Shown here in pieces: positions 903 to 21,697 of a DNA stretch of 64,000 nucleotides. Origin of the DNA: Steroidobacteraceae bacterium. GTDB lineage: Bacteria > Pseudomonadota > Gammaproteobacteria > Steroidobacterales > Steroidobacteraceae. A program made the position numbers and the translations under genes. Each line of letters opens with the position of its first letter. Within the stretch, counting starts at the first letter, position 1. Under the pieces are notes generated by a model that ran no database searches, was not told the DNA's origin, and saw nothing but the letters and a program-made list of their open reading frames with translations. The stretch spans positions 1 through 64,000 of the forward strand of contig JANWJS010000004.1 of NCBI GenBank assembly GCA_025451845.1. Direction: 5' to 3'.

Positions 903-947
903 CTCATAATGCCGGGGTCGAGGGTTCGAGTCCCTCCCTTTCCACCA
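903..947 (+). other. 3' tRNA remnant (anticodon loop CTCATAA to CCA), att-like site 1
   Basis: The sequence runs from a CAT-anticodon loop through a T-arm (GAGGG TTCGAGT CCCTC) to an encoded CCA end. The bases 5' of the loop do not pair with the anticodon stem, so only the 3' half of a tRNA is present. It matches 20098-20142 with one mismatch and is followed by the same hairpin. This is the usual footprint of tyrosine-recombinase integration into a tRNA gene. Confidence 0.85.
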
Positions 948-982
948 GTTTGCCAGCAGCGCGCGGGGATCAGGTAGAGGGC

Positions 983-1007
983 GTTTCGCCGAAAATTCGG
1001 GCGAAAC
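983..1007. terminator. Hairpin downstream of tRNA remnant 1
   Basis: GTTTCGCCGAA and TTCGGGCGAAAC pair with one bulged base around a short AT loop. The same hairpin follows the remnant at 20.1 kb, so it was probably the terminator region of the parent tRNA gene, carried along in the repeat. No clear T-tract. Confidence 0.5.
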
Positions 1008-1216
1008 CGCCCCCCGGGCTCTACCCACGCGATCCTTCTCGACGAAACGACCGGGCAAAAGACCACCAGATCATGAGATGACCCAGCCGGATCGAACGAA
1101 TGGTGAAGATTAAATATCTTTCTTGGCCGGTTGAAGAGCCGGAAACTGTTCTGTTGAAGACGTCAGACGTGGAGGAATTGCGAAGAATACCTTGAGCCGC
1201 AGCAAGCCGGCACCTT

Positions 1217-1280
1217 GACGGAAAGTTCGCGGCCGCGTCCCGTAAGCACTTGTACTTCAAAGGGCCACAAACGGACATAT
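1217..1280. repeat. Dispersed repeat R2, left copy (64 bp)
   Basis: It matches 19976-20039 over 64 bp without gaps. The + frame reads DGKFAAASRKHLYFKGPQTDI and then a stop at 1279; the other copy reads DENFADAFRRCLCFKGPQTDI without the stop. Conservation of the amino-acid pattern suggests a decayed C-terminus of an unrecognised protein. The two copies lie just inside the two outer tRNA remnants. Confidence 0.7.
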
Positions 1281-1305
1281 GAGGCGGATGGCGAATGCCA
1301 AGTGT

Positions 1306-1413
1306 CTAAATCTTCAGTGCCGGCCTACCGTAGACGATGGTGACGACGTCCTCGAGGTCATGGCTCACAAGAAAATCTCCGTTTCCGCGGCCTTTGAACG
1401 CTTCGAGCCAGCC
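1306..1413 (-). pseudogene. Nucleotidyltransferase C-terminal remnant
   Basis: The minus frame reads WLEAFKGRGNGDFLVSHD, then LEDVVTIVYGRPALKI and a stop. This matches the block KLEAFADRGNGDFLASHD LEDITTIIDGRPEL in the nucleotidyltransferase at 2.9-3.6 kb, so it is a fragment of a second member of that family. Nothing of the catalytic N-terminal half remains. Confidence 0.72.
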
Positions 1414-1452
1414 GGCCGTCAATCACCTGACCGTGCAGGAGATCTTCTCAGC

Positions 1453-2439
1453 TCACGAGGCCTCGATCAGGCCGGTCACGATTTCAAAAGAGTGGCGGCG
1501 TGCCGCATGGTCGTGCATGTTGCTGGTCAACATCAACTCGTCGGCGCCGGTCTTCTCGACAAACGCACGAATCCCGTGAGCCACCACGCCGGGCGAGCCG
1601 ATTGCGGAGCATGATAGTACCTGATCGAGCAGAATGCGACTTTGCTGCGGCAGGGATTCGACATAGCCTTCCACCGGCGGCGGCAGGCGCCCCGGGCGAC
1701 CTGTGCGCAGATTGACGAAGGACTGCTGCCAGGACGAAGCAAGGTAGCGCGCCTCGGCATCCGTGTCGGCAGCGGCCACATTGAAGCCCAACATCACGTA
1801 AGGCTTGTCCAGATGGCGCGACGGCCGGAAGCGCGCGCGATACACGGCGATCGCATCCAGCATTTGCGCCGGCGCAAAATGCGAGGCGAAGGCATAAGGT
1901 AACCCCAGCATCGCCGCAAGCTGCGCGCCGAACAAACTGGAACCCAGGATCCAGATCGGAACCGCATGGCCCTCGCCCGGCACCGCACGCACCGGCCCGT
2001 TGCCTTCGAAATACGCCATCAGTTCCATCACGTCACGCGGGAATTCATCCGGATCCGTACCCAAGCTGCGCCGCAACGCACGTGACGTCACCTGGTCCGA
2101 GCCCGGCGCGCGCCCCAGGCCCAGGTCGATGCGTCCGGGATACATGGCGTCGAGCGTGCCGAACTGTTCGGCAATCTGCAGCGGCGAATGATTGGGCAAC
2201 ATGATGCCACCCGCCCCCACGCGGATACGCGAAGTCGCACCCGCCACGTGGCCGATCAACACCGAGGTCGCCGCACTGGCGATGCCGGGCATGCCGTGAT
2301 GCTCAGCCATCCAGTAGCGCGTGAAGCCGCAGCGGTCCGCGTGCCGGGCAAGATCGACGGTATTGGCAATGGACTCGGTCGCCGAGCCCCCTTCGTTGAT
2401 GGGGCACAGATCGAGAATCGAAAGTGGAATCATGGCCAT
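1453..2439 (-). CDS. LLM-class flavin-dependent oxidoreductase (luciferase-like)
   Basis: A 328-residue protein of the bacterial luciferase-like fold, usual length for the family. It likely uses reduced flavin from a separate reductase to oxidise an unknown small substrate. Seen: SILDLCPI at the N-terminus, [12 protein letters not shown] near 45, [24 protein letters not shown] near 81-103, GLGRAPGSD near 107 and WILGSS near 170, all typical of the YhbW/MsnO8 subgroup. The start is ATG with GAGGT about 10 bases upstream; a second ATG two codons on is possible. It stands alone between tRNA remnants 1 and 2. Substrate unknown. Confidence 0.88.
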
Positions 2440-2857
2440 CGTGAGCCGACCTCATGGTGACAACGGCGGTACCCGGCTGCCGCCCCCATGAAGTGCGGCC
2501 GGCGCGCGGCAATACAACCTGGGATGGCTGCCAACCGGCTTCTACGCCGGCAGCCCGATCAGATTTACTGACTGGGTCTCACTCGCTGCCGGGAATGGGA
2601 TACGCCGCGATGAGTCAAGAAAGCCCGTAAATCCAATGACCTGCCCCTAAAATCGGTCCGCAATCCATGGAAGGCTCCGGAGGTTCATATAGACATCCAT
2701 GGAATGCCTTCTCACGCGCCACCACCCATCTGGTGATCTGGTGCACTGGGGTAAGATGCTCGCCGACTAGCCGTGTGGTGGGGGAACGGCTGGGGGCGGA
2801 TAGACGATCGCCACGATCGAATATCCATATTTTTTTCATCTACTCAGCTGGGCGCTT
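2440..2857. other. Non-coding stretch
   Basis: No supported gene is seen. It holds short dyads (for example an AACCGGC...GCCGGCAG type hairpin near 2530-2560) and a run of T near 2830. A TGACCTGCCCCTAAAATC string at 2638 resembles IS3-type ends but has no partner end or transposase, so no element is called. Confidence 0.5.
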
Positions 2858-2878
2858 CGAGTCCCTCCGTTTCCACCA
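2858..2878 (+). other. 3' tRNA remnant, att-like site 2
   Basis: The 21 bases from CGAGTCCCTCC to TTTCCACCA match the tRNA 3' end at 927-947 with one substitution. It lies directly against the stop codon of the nucleotidyltransferase gene at 2880, as if it marked the edge of an inserted module. Confidence 0.65.
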
Positions 2879-2879
2879 G

Positions 2880-3580
2880 TCACGCCAGTCGCGATATTTG
2901 GCGCATGCGCTCCAGGATCAGCGGTACGCGAGCCTGACTTACTGGATCGTCGGGAAGATGTCCTGGTAGGGCATTGAGGAACGCGGAACTCTGAAGCAAG
3001 GCTTTTACTTGCGCGCTGAGGTGTTTGCGGATCTCAGACGAGGCGACGGCGGCCTCATCTCTGAGTTCGGGGCGCCCATCAATGATAGTGGTGATGTCCT
3101 CGAGATCGTGGCTGGCGAGGAAGTCTCCATTACCGCGGTCGGCGAATGCTTCCAGCTTCGTCGCGATGAACACGGGAGCGCTGATCAGTCGAATCGGGGT
3201 TCCGCTGGGTAGAACGCGGGTGACAGCGGTACGAACGGCTTCGTCATACCAGCGGTTGCCGAATCCCAGGACCGCCTTATCTGTCGGCATCACGTCGAGG
3301 AGGGCGGTACCAGCCAGCCAGCGGCATACTGGTGCGTCGCGGCTGCGATCATGACGCAATCCAGCCTGCTCGAGTTGCCGCTCCAACGTGTGGTATTCGC
3401 CAAGTGAGACGACCTCGACAATGACGTCGACATCGCGAGTGGTACGAACGGGTGGGGTTGCTGCCTCGGTGACGAGGAGGCCGGTGACGCAGCCGCCGAC
3501 GAAAACGATCGCTGAGAGAGTGGTCCCAAAGCAGCGACTACCGACTCTAACAGCGGCAGGTTCGGGTTCGCCACGTTCAT
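2880..3580 (-). pseudogene. Nucleotidyltransferase (AbiEii-like toxin candidate), one-base frameshift
   Basis: The natural start is the ATG at 3580, overlapping the stop of the winged-helix gene (ATGA). From there the frame reads MNVANPNLPLLESVVAALG PLSQR and shifts after about codon 24 (near 3506-3512); the next frame continues FVGGCVTGLLVTEAA, TRDVDVIVEV (nucleotidyltransferase GG...DVDV motif), TALLDVMPTD, KLEAFADRGNGDF and SHDLED. One missing base around CGATCG explains both halves. This family resembles AbiEii/MenT-type nucleotidyltransferase toxins, which modify RNA or protein targets. Rescue by frameshifting, or a sequencing error, cannot be excluded; a start at 3584 in the downstream frame gives 234 residues with a wrong N-terminus. 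Confidence 0.72.
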
Positions 3581-4119
3581 GCAAAGCGTTCCTCTAGCAA
3601 CTTTGCAGCCAAGTTACGTTCGCGGGCCGCGCCCCCGCGTAGCGCATCAAATAAAGCCAGGGTCTCGTACAGCGCTTGATCTTTACGAGCCGCCTGGGGA
3701 ACCGAAGGGTACAGCGGATAGAAAGCGATTCCGCGTCGTTCGCCGTCCGCGGTAGGCCACACCGGTGGCAATTCAGTGTCGGGCTGGACTATCTGATCGC
3801 GAAGCGGCGGTGCGGCATAGGCCGTCGGCACGCCGCGTGTCGGTGCGCCCACCGTGGCCGGAAAGGCGTACTTCGCGCCATGCAGCAGGAATTCCTTCAG
3901 AGCGGCCTTGGCGACTTGCAGTTCACCGGTTGCCAGATGAAGCAGTCTGGCCTCCCTCGCCCGGCCAACGCTGCCATGGACCTCCGATGCGGACATAGAC
4001 AATTCCGCTGACAGTTCAGCGAAGCTGCGGCGCTGATTACCTGTCACCAGCAGCTTCAGCAGGACGCCTCTGGCGGCGACGATCGGCCGCGCCAAAGGAA
4101 GTTTGAGCCACCGCATCAT
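3577..4119 (-). CDS. Winged-helix regulator paired with nucleotidyltransferase (antitoxin candidate)
   Basis: From the ATG at 4119 the product has 180 residues. The open frame extends upstream to 4287, but that part lies inside the 3' end of the SDR gene and looks non-native. A helix-turn-helix is seen in RRSFAELSAELSMSASEV HGSVGRARE (residues about 31-60), followed by KYAFPATVGAPTRGVPTAY AAPPL, PVWPTADGE and PLYPSVPQAA, then ALYETLALFDALRGGAAR near the end. It overlaps the nucleotidyltransferase by ATGA, so the two were translationally coupled. Gene order (HTH first, nucleotidyltransferase second) parallels AbiE-type toxin-antitoxin operons, but the sequence is not AbiEi. Function as antitoxin or autorepressor is inference. 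Confidence 0.65.
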   Translation of the reverse strand: MMRWLKLPLARPIVAARGVLLKLLVTGNQRRSFAELSAELSMSASEVHGSVGRAREARLLHLATGELQVAKAALKEFLLHGAKYAFPATVGAPTRGVPTAYAAPPLRDQIVQPDTELPPVWPTADGERRGIAFYPLYPSVPQAARKDQALYETLALFDALRGGAARERNLAAKLLEERFA

Positions 4120-4181: not shown

Positions 4182-5057
4182 TCACGCCCGATCTGGCGTT
4201 CCTTGGAGCAACTGCCGAAGCCACGGCTCGACGGTCTTCTTCGGCTCGCCCATCGCCGCATTCGTCACACCCTCCCAGGCTTCCCACGTGGCGAGGCGCT
4301 CCGCATAAGCGGCGCGCGCCCTGGGCAGAATCGAGTTGCCAAGTCCGAGGCGTAGCGGCGGATGATCCGTGTCCACCAGCTTCAGGATGGCCTCGGGCGT
4401 CGCCTTCGGGTCCCCGCGTTCCATGGTGGCGAGGCGCGTCAGAAATTGCTGCCGAATCCCGGCATACGGCGCGAGAGAATCGGCGATCGGCGCCGACTTG
4501 CCGAATTCGGTTGCGTAGGCCCCCGGCTCCACCAGTGTCACCTTGATGCCGAATGCTTTCACCTCCTGGGCCAGCGATTCATGCAGTGCTTCTACGGCCC
4601 ATTTCGTCGCACAGTAGAAGCCGATGAGTGGCAAGGCGGTGATTCCGAGCCCGCTGGAGACGCCAAGGATGTGACCGCCGCGCTGCTTGCGTAGCAAGGG
4701 CAAGGCTGCACGGATCACGCGGACCATGCCGAGATAATTGGCGTCGAACAGACCGCGGATCTGCTCGTCGCTGGCCTCTTCCGTAGCGGCGACCAGGCTG
4801 GTACCGGCATTGTTGACCAGAACGTCCATCCTGCCGAAGCGCCCATAGGCTTCCTGAACCGCCTGCTCTACCTGCTCTGCATTGGTGACGTCGAGCGCGA
4901 GCGGCAGGGCGGCATCGCCGAAGCGCGCTCCGAAATCGGCCACGTCAGCCAGTTTACGGGCGGTGACGGCGACCTGATCGCCGCGCTGCAATGCTGCGTC
5001 CGCCCAGATGCGGCCGAAGCCGCGGGAAGCGCCCGTGATGAGCCATGTCTTCTTCAT
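4182..5057 (-). CDS. Short-chain dehydrogenase/reductase (classical SDR)
   Basis: Product of 291 residues starting MKKTWLITGASRGFG, with TGASRGFG cofactor motif at 8-15, NNAG at about 82-85, a serine at LGVSSGLG and the YCATK catalytic pair. The C-terminal part (RATP-like, KATPEAILKLVDTDHPPLRL) is typical of NADP-dependent SDRs annotated as oxidoreductases of the SDR family acting on unknown carbonyl or alcohol substrates. The start is set by GAGAGGGA upstream of the ATG at 5057; the open frame extends further but without a binding site. It lies 40 bp from an epimerase fragment, and may once have been in an operon with it. Confidence 0.88.
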   Translation of the reverse strand: MKKTWLITGASRGFGRIWADAALQRGDQVAVTARKLADVADFGARFGDAALPLALDVTNAEQVEQAVQEAYGRFGRMDVLVNNAGTSLVAATEEASDEQIRGLFDANYLGMVRVIRAALPLLRKQRGGHILGVSSGLGITALPLIGFYCATKWAVEALHESLAQEVKAFGIKVTLVEPGAYATEFGKSAPIADSLAPYAGIRQQFLTRLATMERGDPKATPEAILKLVDTDHPPLRLGLGNSILPRARAAYAERLATWEAWEGVTNAAMGEPKKTVEPWLRQLLQGTPDRA

Positions 5058-5097
5058 TGCGATCCCTCTCGAGTGTTGAACGTGTGCGCGGGACGGG

Positions 5098-5490
5098 TCA
5101 ATCCTGTGTGTAGCGCATGTTGGCCAGATCGGTAAGCAGCGAAGGACCGGTTGGGTTCCAAGCAAGCTTTACCCGGGTCTGCGCGCTGGACACGTGACCA
5201 TCTCTTCCCGCGAAGAATCCGAGGAAGCCGAAGTGCTCCTGCGCCTGTTCCGGCGTGATGGAAATGGCGGGCACCCCCAGACCTTCGCCGAGTGCGGTCG
5301 CGATGTCTTTGAGGGGCACGCCTTCTGCCGCAACGGCGTGATACTTGGCTCCGGCTGAGCCTTGCTCCACCGCCAACCGGTACAGACGGGCGACGTCCGA
5401 GACATGCGCAGCGGGCCAGCGGTTGTCGCCTTGGCCCACCCTTGAGGCGATGGCCAGGCGATCCTGACGGCGAGCACGGCCAACCGTGCA
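5098..5490 (-). pseudogene. C-terminal fragment of an NAD-dependent epimerase/dehydratase
   Basis: The frame reads GQGDNRWPAAHVSDVARLYR, EGVPLKDIATALG, HFGFLGFFAGRDG and LAWNPTGPSLLTDL, the C-terminal third of extended-SDR NAD(P)-dependent oxidoreductases. The Rossmann N-terminal half (about 180 residues) is absent and an in-frame stop lies at 5491-5493. It is followed by the end of bdcR at 5535. A truncated copy, probably not functional. Confidence 0.75.
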
Positions 5491-5534
5491 TCATCGATGT
5501 GAGAGGCGATGAAGCGCGGTGGCCGGGGAGGCGT

Positions 5535-6128
5535 TCAGGCGGCAAGGGCGTGCGCAATCGCCAGTCCGGCGAGGTGTGCGGTAGCGAGCAGGCGGTCGAG
5601 GCTGCGGCCCTTGCGGGCGTTGGCTGAGAGACCGGCCATGGTGGTGCTGACGAAATCCGTCAGCCGCTCTGCCTCCTCAGGGTGGCGAGCGGCGATGTAG
5701 GACCGGATCATGTCCTCCGCAACAACTTGGAAGGCGCAGGCGGCCTCCCGCGCCTCTTCGTCGTTGCCGCGCGTGCCTTCCAGCACCAGGCAACCCGCAG
5801 CGGTGGGATCGGCGGTATAGCGACGCGCGGCCTCTTTCAGTACGGCCGCGAGGCATTCGGCCACCGGGCGTTCCGGACGCAGGAGAACGCGCAGAGGGAT
5901 GGCGTCCGTCGCGGCGTAGCGGTCGAGGACACGGGCGTAGAGACCGGCCTTGTTGCCGAAGGCGGCGTAGAAGCTCGGCGGATTGATGCCCACTGCCGCG
6001 ATGACGTCCGCCACGCTCACGGCGTCGAAGCCGTGGGCATGGAACAAGCGCTGGGCAGTGGCGACCGCTTCGTCCGGATCGAAGCAGCGGGGACGGCCGC
6101 GGGTGCGTGGTTTTTCTTTAGGACTCAT
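5535..6128 (-). CDS. bdcR: TetR-family repressor BdcR
   Basis: A 197-residue TetR regulator: N-terminal RGRPRCFDPDEAVATAQRLF, HTH around DVIAAVGINPPSFYAAF (residues 40-58), then a ligand-binding domain with YTADPTAAGCLVLEGTRG and DFVSTTMAGLSANARKG. The sequence follows E. coli BdcR (YjgJ) along its length (for example VGINPPSxYAAFGxKAGL, AGCxVLEG). It is divergent from bdcA with a 70-bp gap, as in E. coli, and likely represses bdcA. Confidence 0.9.
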   Translation of the reverse strand: MSPKEKPRTRGRPRCFDPDEAVATAQRLFHAHGFDAVSVADVIAAVGINPPSFYAAFGNKAGLYARVLDRYAATDAIPLRVLLRPERPVAECLAAVLKEAARRYTADPTAAGCLVLEGTRGNDEEAREAACAFQVVAEDMIRSYIAARHPEEAERLTDFVSTTMAGLSANARKGRSLDRLLATAHLAGLAIAHALAA

Positions 6129-6139
6129 TACAAAAATGC

Positions 6140-6167
6140 TTGACCTCGCCGCGGGTTTTTATATAGT
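6140..6167 (+). promoter_or_regulatory. Sigma-70-type promoter for bdcA
   Basis: TTGACC and TATAGT are separated by 16 bases in the 70-bp bdcR-bdcA gap. An AAGGAG ribosome binding site at 6187-6192 precedes the bdcA ATG. BdcR probably acts here; no clean palindrome was identified. Confidence 0.55.
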
Positions 6168-6198
6168 GCTTCCTACATTAAATCGCAAGGAGTTCCAG

Positions 6199-6912
6199 AT
6201 GGCCGTGCTTAAAGGAAAGTCGGTGCTTGTGCTCGGCGGGAGCCGGGGTATCGGCGCCGCAATCGTTCGCCGCTTCGCGGCGGACGGTGCAAGGGTGACG
6301 TTCACGTATGTCGCGTCGCGCGACGCGGCGGAGCAGCTGGCAAACGAAACCGGTAGCAGGGCGGTGCTGACCGACAGTGCGGACAGAGACGCGGTGATCG
6401 CGCGGGTGCGCGAGAGCGGGCCGCTGGACGTGCTGGTGGTGAATGCCGGCATCGGCGTCTTCGGCGATGCACTGGAGCTGGACGCGGACGCGGTGGATCG
6501 GATGATTCGGATCCATGTCAACGCTCCGTACCACGCCTCAGTGGAGGCGGCGCGGCGGATGCCGCAGGACGGCCGGATCATCGTCGTGGGATCCGTGAAT
6601 GGGGACCGGATGCCCTTCGCCGGCGGGGCGGCCTACGCCATGACCAAATCCGCCCTGCAGGGGATGGCGCGAGGACTGGCGCGGGACTTCGGGCCACGAG
6701 GGATCACGATCAACGTCGTGCAACCAGGCCCGATCGACACCGCCGCGAATCCCGCCGACGGGCCATTGAAGGACCTGATGCACAGTTTCATGGCGATTAA
6801 ACGCCACGGCCGGCCGGAGGAAGTCGCCGGAATGGTGGCCTGGCTCGCCGGGCCGGAGGCGAGCTTCGTGACCGGCGCGATGCATACGATCGACGGCGCG
6901 TTTGGCGCCTAG
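6199..6912 (+). CDS. bdcA: BdcA, SDR-type c-di-GMP-binding biofilm dispersal protein
   Basis: A 237-residue SDR, the same length as E. coli BdcA and closely similar along it (LGGSRGIGAAIVRRF, VVNAGIGVFG, APYHASVEAARRMP, GSVNGDRMP, GPRGITINVVQPGPIDT, GAMHTIDGAFGA). The cofactor motif GGSRGIG lies at 13-19, NAG at 82-84, and the catalytic set S132, Y146 and K150 is intact. E. coli BdcA is reported to bind cyclic di-GMP and promote biofilm dispersal. Start fixed by AAGGAG 6 bases upstream of the ATG; the longer open frame overlaps bdcR and is not used. Confidence 0.92.
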   Translation: MAVLKGKSVLVLGGSRGIGAAIVRRFAADGARVTFTYVASRDAAEQLANETGSRAVLTDSADRDAVIARVRESGPLDVLVVNAGIGVFGDALELDADAVDRMIRIHVNAPYHASVEAARRMPQDGRIIVVGSVNGDRMPFAGGAAYAMTKSALQGMARGLARDFGPRGITINVVQPGPIDTAANPADGPLKDLMHSFMAIKRHGRPEEVAGMVAWLAGPEASFVTGAMHTIDGAFGA

Positions 6913-7084
6913 AGGGCCGGACGGTCCAAGGCTGGGCCGCGGGCGCGCCTGCCTCGGAGGGCACGCTGCGATTCGCGGACCGTTCCGGTGCATCCCATGA
7001 TCGTGCGGTCAGGTGAAGCGGTGCCAGAGCGCCGGAGGCACATGGCGGGAGCTGCCTCGCAGCTTGCGGTTGCATCGGTCCGCG

Positions 7085-8011
7085 TCACACTCGCCGGGTA
7101 CCAATCGATTGTCGGCGCCGAAACTCACCGGGAGTACAGCCGGATTCGCGCTTGAACACCTTGACGAAGTGGGTCGTGTCCGCGAATCCGACCCGCTCGG
7201 CGATCGCGGCGATCGGCAAGTCAGTATGCGCGAGGAGGCGTTTTGCCTCCAGATTGATTCGTCCCGTGACAAACTTCTTCGCGTTGATTCCAGCCCCCTC
7301 CATTGTGGCGCGCGTCAAGCTCCTTTCCGAGCATCCGAGCCGCGAGGCGTACTCAGCCACGCCATGCCACTGCGAAAACCTCCTCTCCACGAGACGTTGG
7401 AAGCTCTCGAAGCGCCGCCAAGCGACGCGGCGCGCATGCCGCGGTGCTTCCAGATCATGGAGCATCGCAAGGCGCAACAGCAGCGCACACAGTTGATGGT
7501 GCAGCAGCGCGTGTACTTGTTCCCGCGGCGCCGCGAGTCGGCAATCTTCGCGCATTTGCCCGATCGCCCCCGTAACCGCGCGGAGCTCCTGCTCACCGAG
7601 CGCCAGCGCTCGCGGCAGGCTTTCGAGCGCCGACACGAGTCCCCGCTCTCCCTCGGTCCTGCTCGAGGGCGGCAGGAATTGCGCCTGGAACAGGACAATC
7701 CATCCGTCCCATCGCGGATCGGAGTCAAACCGGTGCACCTGTGCCGGTTGAATCGCGAGCAGCGACCCCGCTTTGCAGGCAACAGGCTCGAAGTCGACCC
7801 AATGCGTGCCTTCGCCACGTGTCACACACAGGAGCAGGTGAAAGCCGTACTGGTGTGTCGCTTCAAGAAACCCCTTCCTCACTCGCCGTCTCAGATCGGA
7901 CGCCGAGAAGATCTCAAGGTCCAATGTATTGGGTCCGGTCGGACGATACTCGAGCCGCGCGATTGGGGACGGCCGGTCATAGGCGAGCATGCTGTGTCCG
8001 AAACTTACCAT
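7085..8011 (-). CDS. AraC-family regulator with cupin sensor domain
   Basis: A 308-residue product from the ATG at 8011 (MVSFGHSML). An N-terminal cupin-like sensor has LLLCVTRGEGTHWVDFEP and LLAIQPAQVHRFDSD; the C-terminal AraC DNA-binding domain shows VAEYASRLGCSERSLTRA and PIAAIAERVGFADTTHFVKVF with GCTPGEFRR at the end. It is divergent from the FAD monooxygenase 80 bp away and probably activates it in response to an aromatic or similar substrate. The open frame continues to 8245 but overlaps the monooxygenase, so the shorter start is preferred. Confidence 0.85.
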   Translation of the reverse strand: MVSFGHSMLAYDRPSPIARLEYRPTGPNTLDLEIFSASDLRRRVRKGFLEATHQYGFHLLLCVTRGEGTHWVDFEPVACKAGSLLAIQPAQVHRFDSDPRWDGWIVLFQAQFLPPSSRTEGERGLVSALESLPRALALGEQELRAVTGAIGQMREDCRLAAPREQVHALLHHQLCALLLRLAMLHDLEAPRHARRVAWRRFESFQRLVERRFSQWHGVAEYASRLGCSERSLTRATMEGAGINAKKFVTGRINLEAKRLLAHTDLPIAAIAERVGFADTTHFVKVFKRESGCTPGEFRRRQSIGTRRV

Positions 8012-8091
8012 CGAAAGGCCGATTTCGCCGCTGACTTGCAGGCCAGCTTGTCCATAATAGCCATCAGCTCCTTTGTCCTCAACGAGGACAT

Positions 8092-9324: not shown

Positions 9325-9389
9325 GGCAGTGTCGTTCTCGATTATGATGGCCGAGCTTTCGAATGGGATACAGAGGACCTTGAAGATCA

Positions 9390-9782
9390 GTGAAAGACAG
9401 CAACACCACCATTGAGCAGGCGTATTCGGCGTTCAACAGGCGGGATGTGGACGGTGCATTGGCTCTGATGACGCAGGACGTGAGCTGGCCGAAAGCTTCG
9501 GAGGGTGGCAGGGTCGTCGGAAGAGAGGAGGTTCGCGCCTATTGGATCCGACAATGGAGCGAGTTCGATCCCCATGTGGAACCGCTCGCAATGACCCGGG
9601 AAGAGGGAGGCAAGATGCGCGTCAGGGTGCGCCAAGTCGTCAAGACCCTTCAAGGCGATATTCTCTCAGTCAGCGAGGTCGTGCACGTATTCACCATGAG
9701 CGGTGGGTTCATCTCGGCAATGGATCTTGGTGATGGGGACAATCCAACTGCGGGTCCCTCGGCCGCATTCGTGCGTCACTGA
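9390..9782 (+). CDS. NTF2/SnoaL-like small protein
   Basis: A 130-residue protein starting at GTG (KDSNTTIEQAYSAFNRRDVD GALALM, in two parts), with SWPKASEGGRVVGREEVRAY and REEGGKMRVRVRQV. This is the cone-shaped alpha+beta fold used by ester cyclases, isomerases and many uncharacterised enzymes. It follows the FAD monooxygenase and may act on its product; there is no direct evidence for an activity. Confidence 0.78.
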   Translation: MKDSNTTIEQAYSAFNRRDVDGALALMTQDVSWPKASEGGRVVGREEVRAYWIRQWSEFDPHVEPLAMTREEGGKMRVRVRQVVKTLQGDILSVSEVVHVFTMSGGFISAMDLGDGDNPTAGPSAAFVRH

Positions 9783-9933
9783 CAACTCGTCATCAGCTGA
9801 GTGGGCAATGCGTTGAGCGAGGTGTCAATCGTACTTCCACGCATTTGGCCGGGTCGCTTGGGGGGTATCGAATGGACAAGGTGAACATGCCTCATGCGTC
9901 GGGGCCCGATTGCGCGGGAGCTGCTTCAGGCGG

Positions 9934-10840: not shown

Positions 10841-10850
10841 TACCCTCGCC

Positions 10851-11807: not shown

Positions 11808-12003
11808 GGGCATGACTCCTGAATGAAAGAAATAGACGGTATGGGGTATCAGGAGCGGTTAGGCGGACAGCCGATTCGGCTCCGGAAACCCGCTGTTCGC
11901 AGTCGCAGCGGCAAGTCCATCAGCTGGGGCGAGTTTGGGCCGCTTGACACATCAATACAATTGACGAAATATCGCTCGCAACGATCTAGTCTTTAGATGC
12001 GTC

Positions 12004-12963
12004 GTGCTCGACAACGTCACGATCAACCAGTTGCGTGCATTCGTCGCGGTATGCGACCAGGGAAGCTTCTCGGGTGCGGCGCGGAAGCTGAGGCGCGCGC
12101 AGTCGGCCATCAGCCACGCGATCAAGGCGCTGGAGAGCGCGTTCGATGTCGAACTGTTCGAGCGCAATACCCGCCGGGCGCGACTCACCGCCGCCGGCCG
12201 CAGCCTCTTACCGGACGCGCGCGCGGTGATCTCGCGCACTGAGGAAATGAAGAACCGCGCTGGAGGGATTGCCAAAGCCGGGGTGCCCCAGGTTTCGATG
12301 GCCGTCGATGCGTACTTCCCGCGTGCGCACCTGATCGGCTGCTTGCAAACACTGCAAGCGGAGTTCCCGACCGCAGCGATCAACCTGCACATCACGACGA
12401 TGCGGAGCAGCGAGAACCTGGTGCTCGACAGGGTGTGTGCGCTCGCCGTGACGATCGAGGACGTGCCGGAGGTGAGCCCGGATGTCCTGGAGCGAAACTG
12501 GCTGCGCGAGGCGAAAATGGTGACGCTATGTGCTCCGTCCCATCCGCTTGCTTCGGCGCCTGGACCCATCCCGAAGCACGAGTTCAGCCGATATATTCAG
12601 ATCGTCGTTACAGATAACCAGCCGAGAGCGGAACATAACCAACACGGAGTTTCCGGCAGACGTCAGTGGCTGGTCAACGATCTCGGCGCCAAGCGCGATC
12701 TTCTCGAGGCCGGTCTCGGCTGGGGGCACCTGCCGCAGCATCTCGTCGCCGAGGATCTGGCGAGCGGAAAGCTCGTCGAGCTCGAGCGCCGCGCCTGGCA
12801 CTTCCGTCCACTCACTTTCGTGATCTCGCGCCGCCGGGGTTATGGGCTTTCGCCATGCGAGTCGCGGCTGATCGAGCTTCTCGGAAAGCCCGGTGCATCA
12901 CAACGGAAGCAGGTTGGCTCTCCCTCTTCGGGCAGGCGCAAAAGCCCGAAGGCGGGCCGATGA
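12004..12963 (+). CDS. LysR-family regulator with altered C-terminus
   Basis: A 319-residue LysR regulator from GTG at 12004. HTH: VTINQLRAFVAVCDQGSF, SGAARKLRRAQSAISHAIKA at residues 5-45; effector domain follows, with GLGWGHLPQHLVAEDLASG near 240. The last about 25 residues (GASQRKQVGSPSSGRRKSPK region) are not LysR-like: the DNA under them aligns with the AbiEi remnant that begins here, so the gene end appears to have been replaced by inserted sequence. It is divergent from the alpha/beta hydrolase, a likely target. Confidence 0.85.
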   Translation: MLDNVTINQLRAFVAVCDQGSFSGAARKLRRAQSAISHAIKALESAFDVELFERNTRRARLTAAGRSLLPDARAVISRTEEMKNRAGGIAKAGVPQVSMAVDAYFPRAHLIGCLQTLQAEFPTAAINLHITTMRSSENLVLDRVCALAVTIEDVPEVSPDVLERNWLREAKMVTLCAPSHPLASAPGPIPKHEFSRYIQIVVTDNQPRAEHNQHGVSGRRQWLVNDLGAKRDLLEAGLGWGHLPQHLVAEDLASGKLVELERRAWHFRPLTFVISRRRGYGLSPCESRLIELLGKPGASQRKQVGSPSSGRRKSPKAGR

Positions 12964-13108
12964 GACCTGGTGACGCTCGGGACGCATAACGACGCTCTCT
13001 ATGCCCTGCGGGATCGCGGTCGAGTCGTCGAACTCGACCGCGGCCTCTATCGTCTGGCCGAAGCCGAGGAAGCCGAGCATCCCGACCTCCCCGTACACAT
13101 GGTCAAAC
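12905..13108 (+). pseudogene. AbiEi antitoxin remnant
   Basis: After the LysR stop the + strand reads LVTLGTHNDALYALRDRGRV, VELDRGLYRLAEAEEAEHPD, and LPVHM, matching the AbiEi gene at the left edge (LVALGVHTDALYALRDGG, ELGRGLYRLAEA). The part upstream, under the LysR tail, also aligns in a shifted frame. It stops near 13105. This is a second, truncated copy of the AbiEi N-terminal domain. Confidence 0.78.
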
Positions 13109-13125
13109 ATCGATCGCCGCTCCTA

Positions 13126-14325
13126 TTAACTCAGGTTCGCGAACGCTGCCGGCGTGAAGTCGGTAATTTGGTCAACACGACCCTGCCGTATCTTCTCGAG
13201 CCAGGCAGGATCCTGCAGCAGCGCGCGGCCGACCGCCACGAGGTCGAACTCGTCGCGCTCCAGCCGCGCGAGCAGCCCATCCAGCGGCGTGAACCGGGCG
13301 CTCTTTCCCGCAAAGGACTCGTAAACGTCACCGGACAGGCCGACGGCGCCGACGGTTATCGCAGTGACACCTGTGAGCTTCTTCGCCCAGCCGGCAAGAT
13401 TCAGTTCTCTGTCAACCTCGGGGAAGGCGGGCTGCCAGAATTTCGACTGGGAGAGGTGGAAGGCGTCCGCACCAGCTTCGACGAGCACGCCAAGCCATCG
13501 TTCCAGCGCCTGCGGCGTCTCGGCGAGCCTTGCATCGAAGTCTGTCGGCTTCCACTGCGAAAGACGAACGATCACCGGGAAGCCGGAGCTCACCACCGAG
13601 CGGACTGCCTTGAGAATCTCGACCGCGAAGCGGGAGCGCTCGACGAGCGTCTTGCCGCCGTACTCGTCGTCGCGCAAGTTGAGATGGTCGTAGAAGAACT
13701 GATTGATGAGATACCCGTGCGCGGCCATCAGCTCCACCCCGTCAAACCCGACCCGCTCCGCATCCATCGCTGCGCGCGCGAAGGCATCGATGGTGTCGGC
13801 CACATCCGCTTCGCTCATCGGCCGACCGACGCGCTCGCCTGTCACGGAAAGCCCCGAAGGACTCTCGTAAGGCGCGGGTGGTATCCAGTCCGGCGCCGCC
13901 TTCGAGAGCTTATGCCCCACATGAACCAGCTGCGGTGCGATGCGCCCACCGGCCGCGTGAACCGCGTCCACTACCTTCTTCCAGCCAGCGAGCGCCGCCT
14001 CGCCGTGGAAATGAGGCATCTTAGGCTCGTTGTGCGCGGCCGGACGGCCAACCGCGGTTCCCTCCGTAATGATGAGGCCGACGCCATTCTCCGCGCGGCG
14101 CCGGTAATAGTCGGCGACTTCGGACGTCGGCACGCCTCCCGGAGAGACAGACCGGGTCATGGGAGCCATGACGAGGCGGTTCGGCAGGTTGAGGGAGTTC
14201 AGGCGGTAGGGCCTGAACAGGACGGACGGATTGCCGGCACGGGCCAGCCCCTTCGCGGTGGCGCGGCCAATACCAGCCGTGGATCCGGTGACCACCGCCT
14301 CGCGGCGCTTGAGCTCGCTAGTCAT
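13126..14325 (-). CDS. Old Yellow Enzyme-family ene reductase with SDR-like N-terminal extension
   Basis: Product of 399 residues. Residues 1-31 (TSELKRREAVVTGSTAGIG RATAKGLARAG) are the start of an SDR Rossmann fold with a TGSTAGIG motif; from about 32 the protein becomes an OYE: VLFRPYRLNSLNLPNRLVMA, PMTRS, SEVADYYRRRA, QLVHVGHK, DGVELMAAHGYLINQFF and RDDEYGG, ending with LVAVGRALLQDPAW. The OYE barrel (FMN and NADPH-dependent reduction of activated alkenes) looks complete; the SDR piece cannot be a working domain. A decayed second copy with the same junction lies at 18.4 kb. ATG at 14325 is preferred to a GTG at 14352 that overlaps the upstream gene stop. Confidence 0.87.
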   Translation of the reverse strand: MTSELKRREAVVTGSTAGIGRATAKGLARAGNPSVLFRPYRLNSLNLPNRLVMAPMTRSVSPGGVPTSEVADYYRRRAENGVGLIITEGTAVGRPAAHNEPKMPHFHGEAALAGWKKVVDAVHAAGGRIAPQLVHVGHKLSKAAPDWIPPAPYESPSGLSVTGERVGRPMSEADVADTIDAFARAAMDAERVGFDGVELMAAHGYLINQFFYDHLNLRDDEYGGKTLVERSRFAVEILKAVRSVVSSGFPVIVRLSQWKPTDFDARLAETPQALERWLGVLVEAGADAFHLSQSKFWQPAFPEVDRELNLAGWAKKLTGVTAITVGAVGLSGDVYESFAGKSARFTPLDGLLARLERDEFDLVAVGRALLQDPAWLEKIRQGRVDQITDFTPAAFANLS

Positions 14326-14348
14326 GTAATTTATCCGCGCTTCGTCGA

Positions 14349-14951
14349 TCACTGCTCCGGCTGGAACAGATCCTGGAAGATTAGGGGTGCCCAGCTCTTG
14401 TCCCGTGCCTGCACGAGCAGACCACCTTCGGCAATCTTTCCGAGGCTGACCGGCGCGTAGCCGAGCTTCTCGATCAGCGAGGCGACCGTGGCCACGGCGC
14501 CTTCATCGTCGCTCGAGAGGAAGATCACCCGACGTCCCGCGCCGACGTCCGGATCCTGCGCGAGCACCGCGGCTGGCAGATGATTGAAGGCTTTGACGAG
14601 CCGTGCGCCATTCAGGGCATTGGCGATCACCTTCGACGACGGCAGGTTTCCCAGGTCGACAAGTGGAACGCCGTAGGCGTTCGTGGCATCGATAACGACT
14701 TTGCCTCTCCAGCTTGGAAGCGCCTGAGCCACGTCGCGGTGGGCCCAAAAGGGAACGGCGAGCAGAATGACATCCGCTGCAAGCGCGTCCTTCAGCGACT
14801 TGGGGACGATAGTTGGCCCAATTGAGCGCGCAGCCGCCGCAAGAGCTTCGGGCGACCGGGTCGTGGCTACCGCCGTACTTATTCCTTTGCGAGCGAATGC
14901 TCGCGCCAGGGCTTTCCCGACAGTACCGAAACCTATGATCGAATAGTTCAT
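14349..14951 (-). CDS. NADP-binding oxidoreductase (F420-dependent NADP reductase-like)
   Basis: A 200-residue protein with N-terminal NYSIIGFGTVGKALARAF (dinucleotide fold), DVILLAVPFWAH, VIDATNAYG and VKAFNHLPAAVL, typical of the NADP oxidoreductase, coenzyme F420-dependent family that in most proteobacteria uses NADP with an unknown partner. GGGAGA precedes the ATG. It lies immediately upstream of the OYE gene with overlap at the GTGA, so the two probably form an operon. Confidence 0.85.
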   Translation of the reverse strand: MNYSIIGFGTVGKALARAFARKGISTAVATTRSPEALAAAARSIGPTIVPKSLKDALAADVILLAVPFWAHRDVAQALPSWRGKVVIDATNAYGVPLVDLGNLPSSKVIANALNGARLVKAFNHLPAAVLAQDPDVGAGRRVIFLSSDDEGAVATVASLIEKLGYAPVSLGKIAEGGLLVQARDKSWAPLIFQDLFQPEQ

Positions 14952-15214
14952 CGCAATTCTCCCGTACCAGTGATCGGCCCTGGGTACCCGCGGCGGTCAG
15001 CGGACCGGTACGCATCCTTGGCAATGGTTCACCATGCGGCGGAACAATCCCGCACTCCCAGTGCCGCCACCTCGAGCGTGAAGATAGGATTGCCCTTCGA
15101 AACCCACCAGTACATATACTGGCGGAAGGGTGGTGCATAATTGCACCGGGGCGACCAAGGTTTCGGACTCGACGGACTTAAAATGCCCCTCTCCAAGCCG
15201 GCAGAAGCGCATTC

Positions 15215-16111
15215 GTGATTGAATGGGATGACATACGCTATTTCCTCGCCGTCGCACGCGGCGGCTCAGTGCGCTCTGCTGCTGAGCAACTTGGTGTCAA
15301 CCACTCCACAATCCTCCGCCGCATTGCACAGCTGGAGAGAAGGCTGGGTGCGCACATGTTCGAGAGGCTGCCCTCGGGTTACCGCATGACCGACGCAGGG
15401 GAGGAGGTGCTGGAACTCGCGCAACAGATGGAAGCCTCGTCGAATCAGCTTCAGGCACGCGTTCTCGGGCGCGATCAAAGCGCTCGAGGTCTACTGCGGG
15501 TCACGCTTGCTCCCACACTCGCAACGCATCTCCTCATGGCAGATTTCTCCGAGTTCGCGCGTCGACATCCGGAGGTCGAATTGGATATCCTCTCGCTCGA
15601 CGAACCGGTTAATCTCACCAACCGTGAGGCGGACGTGGCGATCCGCGTCGTTTACGATCGAAACAAGTTGCCACCAAACCTTCATGGATTGAAGGGACCG
15701 GACCTGTTCGGCGCGGTCTACATGTCACGCGATCTCCTTGCCGCCTGGCGCGCGGGCAAGCATCACCGGATCCGCTGGATCGTCAAGAACAACGTTGGAA
15801 TTTCGGATTGGGCGCTCGACAGCGAGGTCCGTCCTGCTGACGTTCTGTTCAGGACCACGTCCGCCGACGCTCAGATCGTGGCGGTACGCCAGGGAATCGG
15901 CATGACTACGCTTCCATGCTTCGTCGGCGACGCGGAGCCGTCTTTGACGCGAGTGCCGGGAAGCAAACTACATATGCATGGGACGCTCTGGCTGCTGACG
16001 CAGGGCGAAACGCGAAAGACCAAGCGGGTGCGGCTGCTTATAGACCACCTGTCGCGTCGTCTCGCCGCGTACGCGACCCTTCTCGTTGGCGGGTCGCGGC
16101 GCTCTGAATAA
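15215..16111 (+). CDS. LysR-family regulator
   Basis: A 298-residue LysR regulator starting GTG (IEWDDIRYFLAVARGGSVRS), with HTH SAAEQLGVNHSTILRRIAQL at about 20-42 and a substrate-binding domain with DVAIRVVYDRNKLPPNLHG and QGIGMTTLPCFVGD. It is divergent from the NADP oxidoreductase/OYE pair (264-bp gap) and is the probable regulator of that operon. Confidence 0.88.
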   Translation: MIEWDDIRYFLAVARGGSVRSAAEQLGVNHSTILRRIAQLERRLGAHMFERLPSGYRMTDAGEEVLELAQQMEASSNQLQARVLGRDQSARGLLRVTLAPTLATHLLMADFSEFARRHPEVELDILSLDEPVNLTNREADVAIRVVYDRNKLPPNLHGLKGPDLFGAVYMSRDLLAAWRAGKHHRIRWIVKNNVGISDWALDSEVRPADVLFRTTSADAQIVAVRQGIGMTTLPCFVGDAEPSLTRVPGSKLHMHGTLWLLTQGETRKTKRVRLLIDHLSRRLAAYATLLVGGSRRSE

Positions 16112-16386
16112 TCGCCATCGGTGCGGCGTCCGCTTTGCAGACGCCTGACTTGCTCCTCGAAGGATGGGGAGAATCGGGTCAAGTCCGGATGCGGCTCGTA
16201 GGGCGGTAGCCGGCGACAATCCGGTATTTCTCGAGTTTAATGTTCCGGCCGGTCCACTCCGGTGGGTAGCTCCGGGACGGCGCGGCGGAAACGGGAGGCT
16301 CTTGCGCGGGCGCGCTCGGAGATCCGCTCCAGGCGGGCGACGTACGGACACCCAGAGCAACCGCAGCACTTGCCGATGCCGCGGCC
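16112..16386. other. Non-coding stretch before att-like site 3
   Basis: No gene is supported. The minus-strand frame that continues from the integrase remnant is an unconstrained read-through. Confidence 0.5.
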
Positions 16387-16407
16387 CGAATCCCTCCCTT
16401 GCCACCA
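16387..16407 (+). other. 3' tRNA remnant, att-like site 3
   Basis: CGAATCCCTCCCTTGCCACC plus A matches the tRNA 3' core of site 1 at 19 of 21 positions, including the encoded CCA. It lies 30-40 bp from the end of an integrase remnant that reads toward it, the usual integrase-att arrangement. Confidence 0.6.
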
Positions 16408-16439
16408 ACCTTTTTAGCTACTTGCGAGCTTCCTGTTGA

Positions 16440-16676
16440 CCGCACGATCGAGAGTACGGCAGATTTGCGGGACGCCAGATCACAGGCCTTTTCCGCGCAC
16501 GCAATCAGGTTGCTGATGTCGGCCGCGGAGTAGTGCGTCTTGATGTGCGCCGCCTTGTGTCCCAGCAAAGCCTGGCGGCCTCGAACGACACGCCGGCCGC
16601 GCGGAGTCGATACCCGAGCGTGTGCTTGAGGTCGTGCACCCGGATGGACCGAAATCCAGCCGGGCAGGGCGACCCA
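16440..16676 (-). pseudogene. Tyrosine integrase, C-terminal remnant with frameshift
   Basis: The frame reads IRVHDLKHTLGYRLRAAGVS FEAA, then shifts one base to ALLGHKAAHIKTHYSAADIS NLIACAEKACD and LASRKSAV. RVHDLKHTxG, LLGHK and HYSAA are the conserved box II region with the C-terminal catalytic His and Tyr of phage-type integrases. Everything upstream is missing. It explains the nearby tRNA remnant and is no longer able to act. Confidence 0.82.
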
Positions 16677-16782
16677 AGCTCGCGCTCATATCTCGCCGAT
16701 CTTCAGCTCAGCCCGTATCTGACCGGGGGTGGACCGACACGCCGGCCTTCACCGGCGTGAGTTACGATCTGCAGGTCCTGTA

Positions 16783-18667: not shown

Positions 18668-19090
18668 TCAGTCGGTGTCGAACAGCTTTGCGTTATCGAC
18701 GCGGCCCATGACATCCCCAAAGGGCTCGAATCCGAGGCGTTGGTAGAATTCCATCGCATCACCGTCTGCGACGAGAAGCACCCGCCATACCGGTAGCATC
18801 CCAATGAGCTGCTTCATTAGCCGGGTGCCGATGCCTCGACCTTGGTATTCGGGGTGAACGGCGACGTCGTAGACAGTCGCGTGGTATTCGCGATCGCTAA
18901 GCGCCCGCGCGGCTCCGATCAGCTTTGATCCATCGAAGGCAAAACATACGACGGTGCTGTTTTCAAAAGCCCGTCGCACCTTGTCTCCCTCGCGACCACC
19001 CAGCCTCGTGAGCTCGAACAGAGAAACCAGGTCCTGCCAGTCGATCGAGCTGGTATCGCATTGGAAGCGCACTGTCTCAGGATCGCTCAT
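18668..19090 (-). CDS. GNAT-family N-acetyltransferase
   Basis: A 140-residue GNAT protein: VVCFAFDGSKLIGAARAL, DVAVHPEYQGRGIGTRLMKQ (acetyl-CoA pyrophosphate loop QGRGIG at about 88-93) and FYQRLGFEPFG near the C-terminus. Substrate unknown. The start codon overlaps the end of a cardiolipin synthase remnant, so upstream sequence was probably exchanged, though GAGGG before the ATG leaves a usable start. Confidence 0.85.
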   Translation of the reverse strand: MSDPETVRFQCDTSSIDWQDLVSLFELTRLGGREGDKVRRAFENSTVVCFAFDGSKLIGAARALSDREYHATVYDVAVHPEYQGRGIGTRLMKQLIGMLPVWRVLLVADGDAMEFYQRLGFEPFGDVMGRVDNAKLFDTD

Positions 19091-19241
19091 ATAGCACCCT
19101 CGACCTGTCGCCGAGCCGTGATGAGGACTTGAGGTCCGATTCGAACACCGCCGTCATCTCGCGTGCGAACTGCTCGTCGTAGACATTCAGGCTCGCCTCG
19201 TCATTCAGCTCGAAGGATCTCATGTCGAAGTGGACATCATG
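19077..19241 (-). pseudogene. Cardiolipin synthase / phospholipase D C-terminal remnant
   Basis: The minus frame reads HFDMRSFELNDEASLNVYD, EQFAREMTAVFESDLKSS, the block following the second HKD motif in bacterial cardiolipin synthases. No HKD motif remains. The fragment is cut on its upstream side by the vapBC operator region. Confidence 0.78.
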
Positions 19242-19268
19242 ATGCTCATGTGCTAGCATCTTGATGCT
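19235..19268. promoter_or_regulatory. Palindromes directly upstream of vapB (autoregulatory operator)
   Basis: CATCATGATG (19235-19244), TGCTAGCA (19251-19258) and AGCATCTTGATGCT (19255-19268) are perfect palindromes, the last ending at the base before the vapB ATG. VapB proteins repress their own operon through such repeats. Confidence 0.6.
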
Positions 19269-19517
19269 ATGCGAACAACCCTGACTTTGGATGAAGATAT
19301 TGCCGTGCGGCTTCAGGCCGAGTCGCGACGCACGGGCCGACCTTTCAAGACTGTCGTCAACGAGTACCTCCGGGCAGGGCTCGCCCGCAGGAAAGCTGCT
19401 GAAGCCGTCCGACCGTTCCGAGTGGAGTCGGTGCATCTGGGTCCTCCGATTCCCGGGCGCTCTTACGACCGCATCAGCACTCTTTTGGAGGAAACCGAAG
19501 GGGAAGAGCACCGGTGA
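19269..19517 (+). CDS. vapB: VapB-type ribbon-helix-helix antitoxin
   Basis: An 82-residue protein. MRTTLTLDEDIAVRLQAESR is the ribbon-helix-helix DNA-binding start, followed by RPFKTVVNEYLRAGLARRK; the C-terminal GRSYDRISTLLEETEGEEHR would bind and neutralise the toxin. The stop overlaps the toxin start (GTGA), giving translational coupling. Palindromes precede the start. Confidence 0.88.
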   Translation: MRTTLTLDEDIAVRLQAESRRTGRPFKTVVNEYLRAGLARRKAAEAVRPFRVESVHLGPPIPGRSYDRISTLLEETEGEEHR

Positions 19518-19963
19518 AGCTCTTGGATGCGAACGTCCTTCTATACGCCTACAACGCCGATTCTCCGCACAACGCGGCGTGTCGCGCCTGGCTCGAAAGT
19601 GCCTTCAATGACGCGCAGGAACCTGTCGCTCTCCCATGGCAGAGCATTCTTGCTTTCGTGCGGATCGCGACGAACCCTCGCGCCGTGAACAGGCCTCTTA
19701 CGAGTGGAGCTGCATGCGGCATCGTGCGGCAGTGGCTAGAACATCCGAACGTCATCGCGGTGGGGTACGGCGAAAGATTCCTGCAGCTGTTCTGCGAGCA
19801 AGTGGTCGAGGCCAAGGTCAGCGGGCCTCTTGTCAGCGATGCGGCCCTCGCTGCCGTAGCCCTCGAGCAGGGAGCAACGCTGTGCTCCACCGACAAGGAT
19901 TTTCGGCGGTTCGCCGCATTGAAGTTGATCGATCCGCTGACCGCCTCCGCATTAGTTCGGTGA
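19514..19963 (+). CDS. vapC: VapC-type PIN-domain toxin ribonuclease
   Basis: A 149-residue PIN-domain protein starting GTG (KLLDANVLLYAYN), with D5 in the first acidic motif, PWQSILAFVRIATNPR in the middle and SDAALAAVALEQGATLCSTD KDFRRF (D109, D127, D129) at the end. VapC toxins are Mg-dependent RNases that cut specific tRNA or rRNA sites. The operon looks intact and sits near the right end of the tRNA-bounded island, where toxin-antitoxin modules commonly stabilise elements. Confidence 0.9.
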   Translation: MKLLDANVLLYAYNADSPHNAACRAWLESAFNDAQEPVALPWQSILAFVRIATNPRAVNRPLTSGAACGIVRQWLEHPNVIAVGYGERFLQLFCEQVVEAKVSGPLVSDAALAAVALEQGATLCSTDKDFRRFAALKLIDPLTASALVR

Positions 19964-19975
19964 TAACGTCCGTTT

Positions 19976-20039
19976 GACGAAAACTTCGCGGACGCGTTCC
20001 GTAGGTGCTTGTGCTTCAAAGGGCCGCAAACGGACATAT
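19976..20039. repeat. Dispersed repeat R2, right copy (64 bp)
   Basis: Partner of 1217-1280. It begins 13 bp after the vapC stop and lies about 60 bp inside tRNA remnant 4. Reads ENFADAFRRCLCFKGPQTDI on the + strand. Confidence 0.7.
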
Positions 20040-20097
20040 CGCCCGGTAGAGTGCGTCAGGTGCATGAATTTGCCACGCTTTCCTGCCGGGCATTGTC

Positions 20098-20142
20098 CTC
20101 ATAATGCCGGGGTCGAGGGTTCAAGTCCCTCCCTTTCCACCA
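20098..20142 (+). other. 3' tRNA remnant, att-like site 4
   Basis: Forty-five bases from CTCATAATGCCGGGG to the CCA end, identical to site 1 (903-947) except one base (TTCAAG for TTCGAG). The next about 60 bp, including a hairpin, also match those after site 1. No 5' half of the tRNA is present. Confidence 0.85.
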
Positions 20143-21695: not shown

Positions 21696-21697
21696 CG

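Follow-up and report, generated by a model that had tools for sequence, protein, structure and literature searches.

Elements that are flanked by attachment (att) sites, have no integrase of their own and stand in tandem are known as cis-mobilizable elements (CIMEs) and from the tandem accretion of integrative and conjugative elements and integrative and mobilizable elements, and the best-known arrays of toxin-antitoxin cassettes are those of integrons. In Dehalococcoides, the islands at the ssrA gene lie in tandem, are bounded by copies of the 3' end of this RNA gene and often have no integration module; the available part of the report discusses such module-less islands as possible cis-mobilizable elements (PMC3146451). 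The occurrence of toxin-antitoxin cassettes in integrons is mentioned in an excerpt on genomic islands (PMC4119200). Here we analysed a stretch of 64,000 nucleotides from a Steroidobacteraceae bacterium (the window; G000:C4:1-64000, beginning at the contig start), in which the 3' half of a tRNA-Met gene is repeated. We found that the repeat-bounded segment, which has partly decayed, lies inside a tRNA-Met cassette array extending from the tRNA gene to at least 22.3 kb of the window. In all likelihood this array arose as mobile units were added one by one at the 3' end of the tRNA-Met gene beside ychF. Stepwise site-specific accretion is well supported, and an integron-like movement of the units in trans is plausible and unproven.

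The two best-preserved repeats of the window are the following.

903..947, plus strand: 3' half of tRNA-Met(CAT), from the anticodon loop to CCA, the putative attachment-site core; identical to G000:C39:87347-87391
20098..20142, plus strand: second full-length 3' half of tRNA-Met; one mismatch

A preliminary description of the segment had taken them for tRNA 3' halves on the same strand with one mismatch, and 44 of 45 bases are indeed alike. The likeness of their surroundings extends about 60 nt beyond CCA (repeat families D2 and D5). Similar hairpins do lie behind both halves, close to where they had been placed; their folding energy is ordinary compared with shuffled sequences (z -1.1 and -0.6), and since this stability is not unusual we make no claim of a terminator. 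ARAGORN found no intact tRNA inside the window, and Rfam at gathering thresholds gave no match there. The intact gene that had been expected elsewhere in the genome is the tRNA-Met(CAT) at G000:C39:87315-87391, from which the halves derive. Its region matches window 903-965 in 63 of 63 bases (E 1.6e-26), which excludes chance for the window half, and the view that the repeats are traces of integration into the 3' end of a tRNA gene was borne out. Contig C39 stops 69 nt past the CCA of this gene. A cassette of G051 (L125:4712-6937), carrying AbiEi_4 and AbiEii genes, aligns at 97% with the end of C39 through its bases 1-115 and at 97% with C4:1-947 through its bases 1288-2226. As it bridges both ends, C39 and C4 are very probably neighbours with about 1.17 kb unassembled, and the intact tRNA would be separated from position 903 by an AbiEi/AbiEii cassette.

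Searching with window positions 786-947 gave matches in 49 of the 58 genomes of the genus, intact tRNA genes counted in. From regions fetched around the matches, we mapped the half in 62 loci of 41 genomes, which were picked for a matching half and are no random sample of the 58. In 34 of the 116 copies the 5' part of the tRNA is intact; the 82 others lack it and are spread over 32 of the 41 genomes, and two of these (L125 6937 and L137 4) run into contig ends and may belong to intact tRNAs. Nearly all copies start at the anticodon loop (CTCATAA). In front of 52 of the 82 non-intact halves, in 27 genomes, stands a conserved arm of about 115 nt, termed class A and counted where at least 70 nt aligned. 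Behind CCA, 21 of the 116 half sites continue with a shared start of TTGCCAG type, which leads into a hairpin. Ten half-to-half segments start in this way and nine of them finish in a class A arm, with PDC-M21, AbiE, HipBA with Wadjet, or other cargo in between; from their sequences, these segments are units with constant ends and exchanged cargo.

The tRNA-Met gene that hosts the arrays adjoins ychF, and the order of the units differs from genome to genome: PemK, PDC-M21, a 6.7-kb unit and Fic in G054; PDC-M21, HigB/HigA, Fic and HipBA-Wadjet in G060; PDC-M21, HipBA-Wadjet and Fic in G049. Like known accretion islands, the arrays have direct repeats of the 3' end of an intact upstream tRNA and, in some copies although not in G000, an integrase beside the tRNA. 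An artefact of assembly or binning in metagenome-assembled genomes (MAGs) could be suspected, given that contigs often stop at a half (G000, G024, G051). We consider it very improbable, because arrays also sit within long contigs (1.2 Mb in G001, 248 kb in G047, 304 kb in G006) and units recur in many separate assemblies. The half was also found in 4 of 35 stretches from pattern-matched records (L178, L180, L184, L185), filed under Udaeobacter, Acidobacteria and 'Terrabacteria group ANGP1' MAGs, and L178 carries a class A-like integrase of 46% identity; these may be misbinned contigs or a sign of wider spread. For the other 31 stretches, the record titles name MAGs of Proteobacteria, Pseudomonadota or Gammaproteobacteria.

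There are 54 half-to-half segments, and 32 of them, from 17 genomes, are at most 2.3 kb long. Their cargo was typed by tblastn with references from the same arrays, named via Pfam, PADLOC and NCBIfam; this typing is blind to broken frames, the toxin-antitoxin counts cover the arrays only, and small genes were missed by the custom script used for gene calls. A toxin-antitoxin, Fic, HipA or PDC-M21 gene was present in 30 of the 32 small units. Recognised two-gene pairs account for 14 of these: six HigB/HigA-like (Gp49 with an HI1420-type antidote), three of a ribbon-helix-helix protein with PemK, two RES with Xre, two AbiEi with AbiEii and one PIN with Phd. Seven units have a lone gene of a toxin family (six DUF4172-Fic, one HipA), and nine carry the candidate pair PDC-M21, the commonest type. 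The two units without such cargo are the monooxygenase unit of the window and a 1.7-kb unit of G059 (L136:14290-16022), in which no cargo was recognised. HipBA together with a four-gene Wadjet type II system occupies a single half-bounded unit of 10.6-10.7 kb in G049 and G060 (L122:2747-13471 and L120:2680-13274).

In PADLOC, PDC-M21 figures only as a candidate defence pair, and its nucleotidyltransferase has no match in Pfam or NCBIfam. The predicted structure of this protein resembles MenT1 toxins and, less strongly, other nucleotidyltransferases including antibiotic ones. The model of PDC-M21B was built from three sequences, with a predicted local distance difference test score of 77.4, and its top PDB match has a template modelling score of 0.49/0.59 and a root mean square deviation of 8.7. 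With these values, and with antibiotic nucleotidyltransferases matching too, the model supports only the general fold. Still, the MenT1-like predicted fold would give a concrete toxin hypothesis.

Units from different hosts resemble each other more than the hosts themselves do. Taking ychF identity as the yardstick of host relatedness, we found units that are 92-99% alike in hosts with ychF identities of 74-88%. Over 947 nt, the AbiE units of G000 and G051 share 96.9% identity (ychF 75.8%); for the PDC-M21 units of G000 and G049 the value is 99.2% (ychF 87.9%) and for the Fic units of G049 and G054 92.5% (ychF 75.0%). Among 56 cross-species pairs that cover at least 80% of the shorter unit and are not independent of each other, 42 lie above the ychF identity, 19 of them by at least 10 points, and four lie at least 5 points below it; unit identity scarcely tracks host relatedness (Spearman 0.23, p 0.09). 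The HigB/HigA units of G004 and G059 are 86.0% identical despite a ychF identity of 97.2%, and were therefore probably acquired separately. These data indicate that units were transferred between species; they do not indicate the agent that moves them.

One agent could be homologous recombination, in which imported DNA would recombine at the shared halves, arms and constant ends without the help of an integrase. Shared sequence of 45 to more than 150 nt is on offer there, and the integrase is found in few genomes. We examined where identity ends in 39 pairs of at least 85% identity, with 38 usable left and 35 usable right ends. On the left, 15 blocks of identity end at the start of the preceding half, 16 inside the unit and 7 before the half; on the right, 23 end at the distal half, 10 inside the unit and 2 beyond it. 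The ends inside units or past halves would suit homologous exchange. In several pairs, however, the flanks are unrelated right at both halves, as in G054/G058 (left -45, right 0), and such clean breakpoints fit site-specific recombination. Moreover, homologous recombination leaves the origin of the tRNA half at the unit ends unexplained. We regard it as rather unlikely to be what moves the units.

Alternatively, the small units may be fossils, that is, integrase-bearing islands that shrank until a toxin-antitoxin pair that is costly to lose was left, none of them being mobile any more. Toxin-antitoxin pairs resist deletion, and both the decayed halves and the integrase fragments in several arrays and in the window would agree with such shrinkage. 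It is less easily reconciled with the near-constant length of units recurring across species (925-938 bp for the HigB/HigA type and 1392-1410 bp for the Fic type, in six genomes each), since independent decay would not yield the same end points, nor with the different orders and the identities far above ychF in which units recur. We give this explanation perhaps a minor chance, somewhat better than that of homologous recombination. Overall, at the level of sequence, our comparison demonstrates that the units form arrays, that they share ends and exchange cargo, that they have passed from species to species and that sites have been lost or have decayed.

In G001, the frame of an integrase that matches Phage_integrase (PF00589) and that we term class A runs into the tRNA half. 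At E 1e-30 it has matches in 11 of the 58 genomes: it is near complete, with 76-100% identity, in G001, G047, G060 and G055 (at a contig end), interrupted by a stop in G068, 51-55% identical in three more and present as fragments in G050, G010 and G063. The near-complete copies of G001, G047 and G060 adjoin halves, and integrases of related types lie beside the tRNA in G002, G010 and G017. The class A element has TGCGGGA repeats left of the half and right of CCA, which are putative integrase-binding arms. A recombinase at a coverage of at least 75% occurs in 6 of the 54 half-to-half segments; none of the 32 small units holds a full copy of the searched integrases, and one holds a fragment.

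The same tRNA end also serves as a phage attachment site, as judged from viral stretches and a prophage that use the half. Five IMG/VR stretches hold it without a tRNA gene; in three it stands beside an integrase related to that of G002 (45-73% identity), and the other two show the same flanks. In G002, about 42 kb from the tRNA to the next half contain terminase, tail, endolysin and integrase genes and hence represent a prophage. Just past the half that ends it, a PIN-domain-like pair was recognised by eye (L041:2224-2888).

We propose that each unit ends in an attachment site that copies the tRNA between anticodon loop and CCA and is usually preceded by the arm. A tyrosine integrase, of class A or a relative with the same core, would join the half of a circular unit to the tRNA half, which would restore the tRNA gene and leave a half behind. 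Since most units have no integrase, it would act in trans or have been lost. The cargo, a single toxin-antitoxin or defence module, probably guards the units against loss. Going further, the genus could have an integron-like capture system based on a tRNA gene, in which a class A integrase acting in trans inserts minimal toxin-antitoxin and defence cassettes with an exchangeable arm and tRNA half; addiction and anti-phage cassettes would then be shuffled in a common pool kept at a phage attachment site. We put this forward tentatively, as a possibility worth pursuing rather than the expected outcome.

Several observations weigh against accretion of mobile units as described here. The near-complete class A integrase is found in four of the 58 genomes and the class A arm in 27, and in G000 the integrase search at E 1e-30 found no match, the fragment in the window being seen by tblastn. 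The arm had no match in the plasmid or phage records searched and none in viral contigs searched with one strict pattern. No excised circle was seen, and no empty site was demonstrated among the genomes compared, for which five candidates per genome were scored and whose right flanks are rarely comparable. The right-hand genes of 12 arrays have little in common, the clear case being G050/G014, whose last units differ and are followed by three shared collinear genes (protein identities of 88.9, 90.4 and 97.1%); G045 and G046 share a block, and G006 and G050 one gene. For the blocks of identity that end inside or beyond units, divergence, decay or homologous exchange could account. Finally, the genomes with named sources are MAGs, so that gaps and chimeras are possible.

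Read as an array, the window contains the following further features.

1..401, minus strand: AbiEi-type antitoxin gene (5' part), from the distal end of an AbiEi/AbiEii cassette that continues off the contig; window 1-947 is 97% identical to the distal 939 nt of G051 L125:4712-6937
786..902, plus strand: class A arm, about 115 nt, directly upstream of the half; conserved at other non-intact halves
948..1089, plus strand: constant-end cassette start of AbiE type (TTGCCAG and hairpin); 99% identity of window 903-1089 with the first part of the AbiE cassette in G051
1215..1280, plus strand: second arm type (D4), without a half; 86% to 19974-20039 and to a G054 copy just upstream of a half
1453..2439, minus strand: luciferase-like monooxygenase, cargo of the first complete window unit (PF00296, E 3.6e-47)
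2856..2878, plus strand: remnant tRNA half of 23 nt (22 of 23 bases)
2879..4066, minus strand: truncated PDC-M21 cassette, 99.2% to G049 C81:1248-2436, with an abrupt end at 4066
4182..16111, no strand assigned: short-chain dehydrogenases/reductases (SDRs), TetR, AraC, FAD monooxygenase, alpha/beta hydrolase, LysR, FMN oxidoreductase and F420-type oxidoreductase (Pfam)
16385..16699, minus strand: degenerate tRNA half, adjoined by a C-terminal integrase fragment of class A (tblastn to the G047 integrase)
19269..19963, plus strand: pair of a RelB-like antitoxin (weak; NF048017, E 0.0023, below cut-off) and a PIN-domain toxin (PF01850, E 8.5e-10)
19974..20039, plus strand: D4-type arm upstream of the second half (D4 repeat)
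20143..22171, minus strand: HipBA cassette with TTGCCAG-hairpin start; HipA 20349-21689 (HipA_C, E 9.3e-43), HipB 21698-22039
22235..22293, plus strand: orphan class A arm (arm match), the present end of the array, half lost

The AbiE remnant spans 1-902. The first complete unit is chimeric and consists of an AbiE-type start, a half-less D4 arm and the luciferase-like monooxygenase, the DNA of which shares 93.2% identity, along 1214 nt, with DNA in a half-bounded unit of G020. Behind the remnant half at 2856-2878 stands the same cassette start as behind an intact half in G049. The PDC-M21 unit that follows, whose homologues match PADLOC PDC-M21A and PDC-M21B, has a nucleotidyltransferase frame broken near its start (2880-3584), a partner protein with a replaced start (3577-4119), and neither arm nor half beyond 4066. 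The oxidoreductase and regulator genes lie for the most part within 4.1-17.6 kb, and no further half was found there before 16385. There, the integrase fragment (16386-16699) aligns with the G047 integrase in two tblastn segments (68% over 63 aa and 80% over 40 aa), and in G060 similar DNA (90%) adjoins a near-complete integrase. It is followed by an SDR, a GNAT gene, the PIN pair, the D4 arm and the half at 20098. The HipBA cassette is 85% identical to the start of the HipBA-Wadjet units of G049 and G060. In this reconstruction, two units would have decayed, and one or more deletions would have brought in or exposed the oxidoreductase-rich stretch.

The preliminary description had left open whether a single element or stepwise accretion produced the segment, and the remnant at 2856-2878, the fragment at 16385-16699, the class A arms (786-902 and 22235-22293) and the D4 arms (1215-1280 and 19974-20039) were not part of it. 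That one 19.2-kb island was inserted whole between 903 and 20142 is hardly credible. It would account for the two best-preserved halves of the window bounding the segment; however, further halves, arms and an integrase fragment interrupt the interior, and the units on both sides belong to the same array. When the pieces of the segment were compared with the best five candidates per genome, they matched different genomes separately, the pieces of the oxidoreductase stretch matched scattered loci in relatives with no collinear block, and no relative was collinear over the region while lacking the repeats. The composite, stepwise origin thus held up. The limits of 903 and 20142 had to be given up, as the array starts at the tRNA on C39 and runs on into the HipBA unit that ends at 22293.

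Some observations in the window stand apart. The start of the AbiEi gene (202-334) is repeated in inverted orientation inside the oxidoreductase stretch (12962-13094, 86%), and pieces of oxidoreductase or regulator genes form inverted duplicates at 14073-14326 and 18382-18634 (about 89%) and at 10479-10805 and 17815-18141 (about 72%); these point to further rearrangement in the window. Positions 16186-16393 (208 nt) are 97% identical to G058 C64 (L135:11051-11258) and 80-86% to three other genomes. A tandem run of CATCAT/CGTCGCC-type triplets lies at 452-532, between the AbiEi fragment and the class A arm, and the base composition of the window has no sharp step. The D4 repeats, with their inverted ends, were considered as attC-like, an idea that was dropped and for which no attC search was made; as there are just two copies in G000 and one in G054 upstream of a half, we treat D4 as a second arm type.

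In the openly licensed literature searched, we found toxin-antitoxin cassette arrays at a tRNA gene nowhere described. Movement in trans, if it occurs, would place the units among the smallest hitchhikers at tRNA sites. Two ideas would then become testable: that selection favours toxin-antitoxin pairs because they stabilise cassette arrays, and that defence modules sit at phage attachment sites to keep out phages targeting this tRNA.

Compared with described systems, the locus shares parts of its design with each of them. In the available part of the Dehalococcoides report, the target is ssrA, the repeat measures 20 bp, the recombinase is a serine recombinase (DsiB) and the cargo consists of reductive dehalogenases (PMC3146451), whereas here the target is tRNA-Met, the repeat comprises 45 nt and the arm, the integrase is a tyrosine integrase (PF00589), and the units, down to 0.93 kb, carry one toxin-antitoxin or defence module. 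Additive flexible genomic islands of Alteromonas and Methylophilaceae likewise use a tRNA target, with repeated tRNA ends and cassettes gained and lost between strains; the available portions of these reports describe metabolic or resistance cassettes and not arrays of single toxin-antitoxin units with shared ends (PMC4119200, PMC10872708). Tycheposons are, in the excerpts at hand, also tRNA-bordered cargo elements with a tyrosine recombinase (PMC10872708, PMC11389934). Their size is given as 4-200 kb (PMC10872708), while here 32 of 54 segments measure at most 2.3 kb and most units are 0.9-2.2 kb long and without a recombinase. The flanking att sites and the lack of a full searched integrase in all 32 small units recall CIMEs, from which the cargo, the size and the design with constant ends differ. 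Integrons and clusters of attC sites lacking integron integrases (CALIN) are likewise rows of interchangeable short cassettes, and many such arrays have no integrase, according to the part of the source available (PMC11389934). In contrast to integrons, the site is a tRNA half with an arm instead of attC (no attC motif search was made), the target is a tRNA gene instead of attI, and the integrase frame runs into the tRNA half. The tRNA half seems to serve an integron-like purpose across species of one genus.

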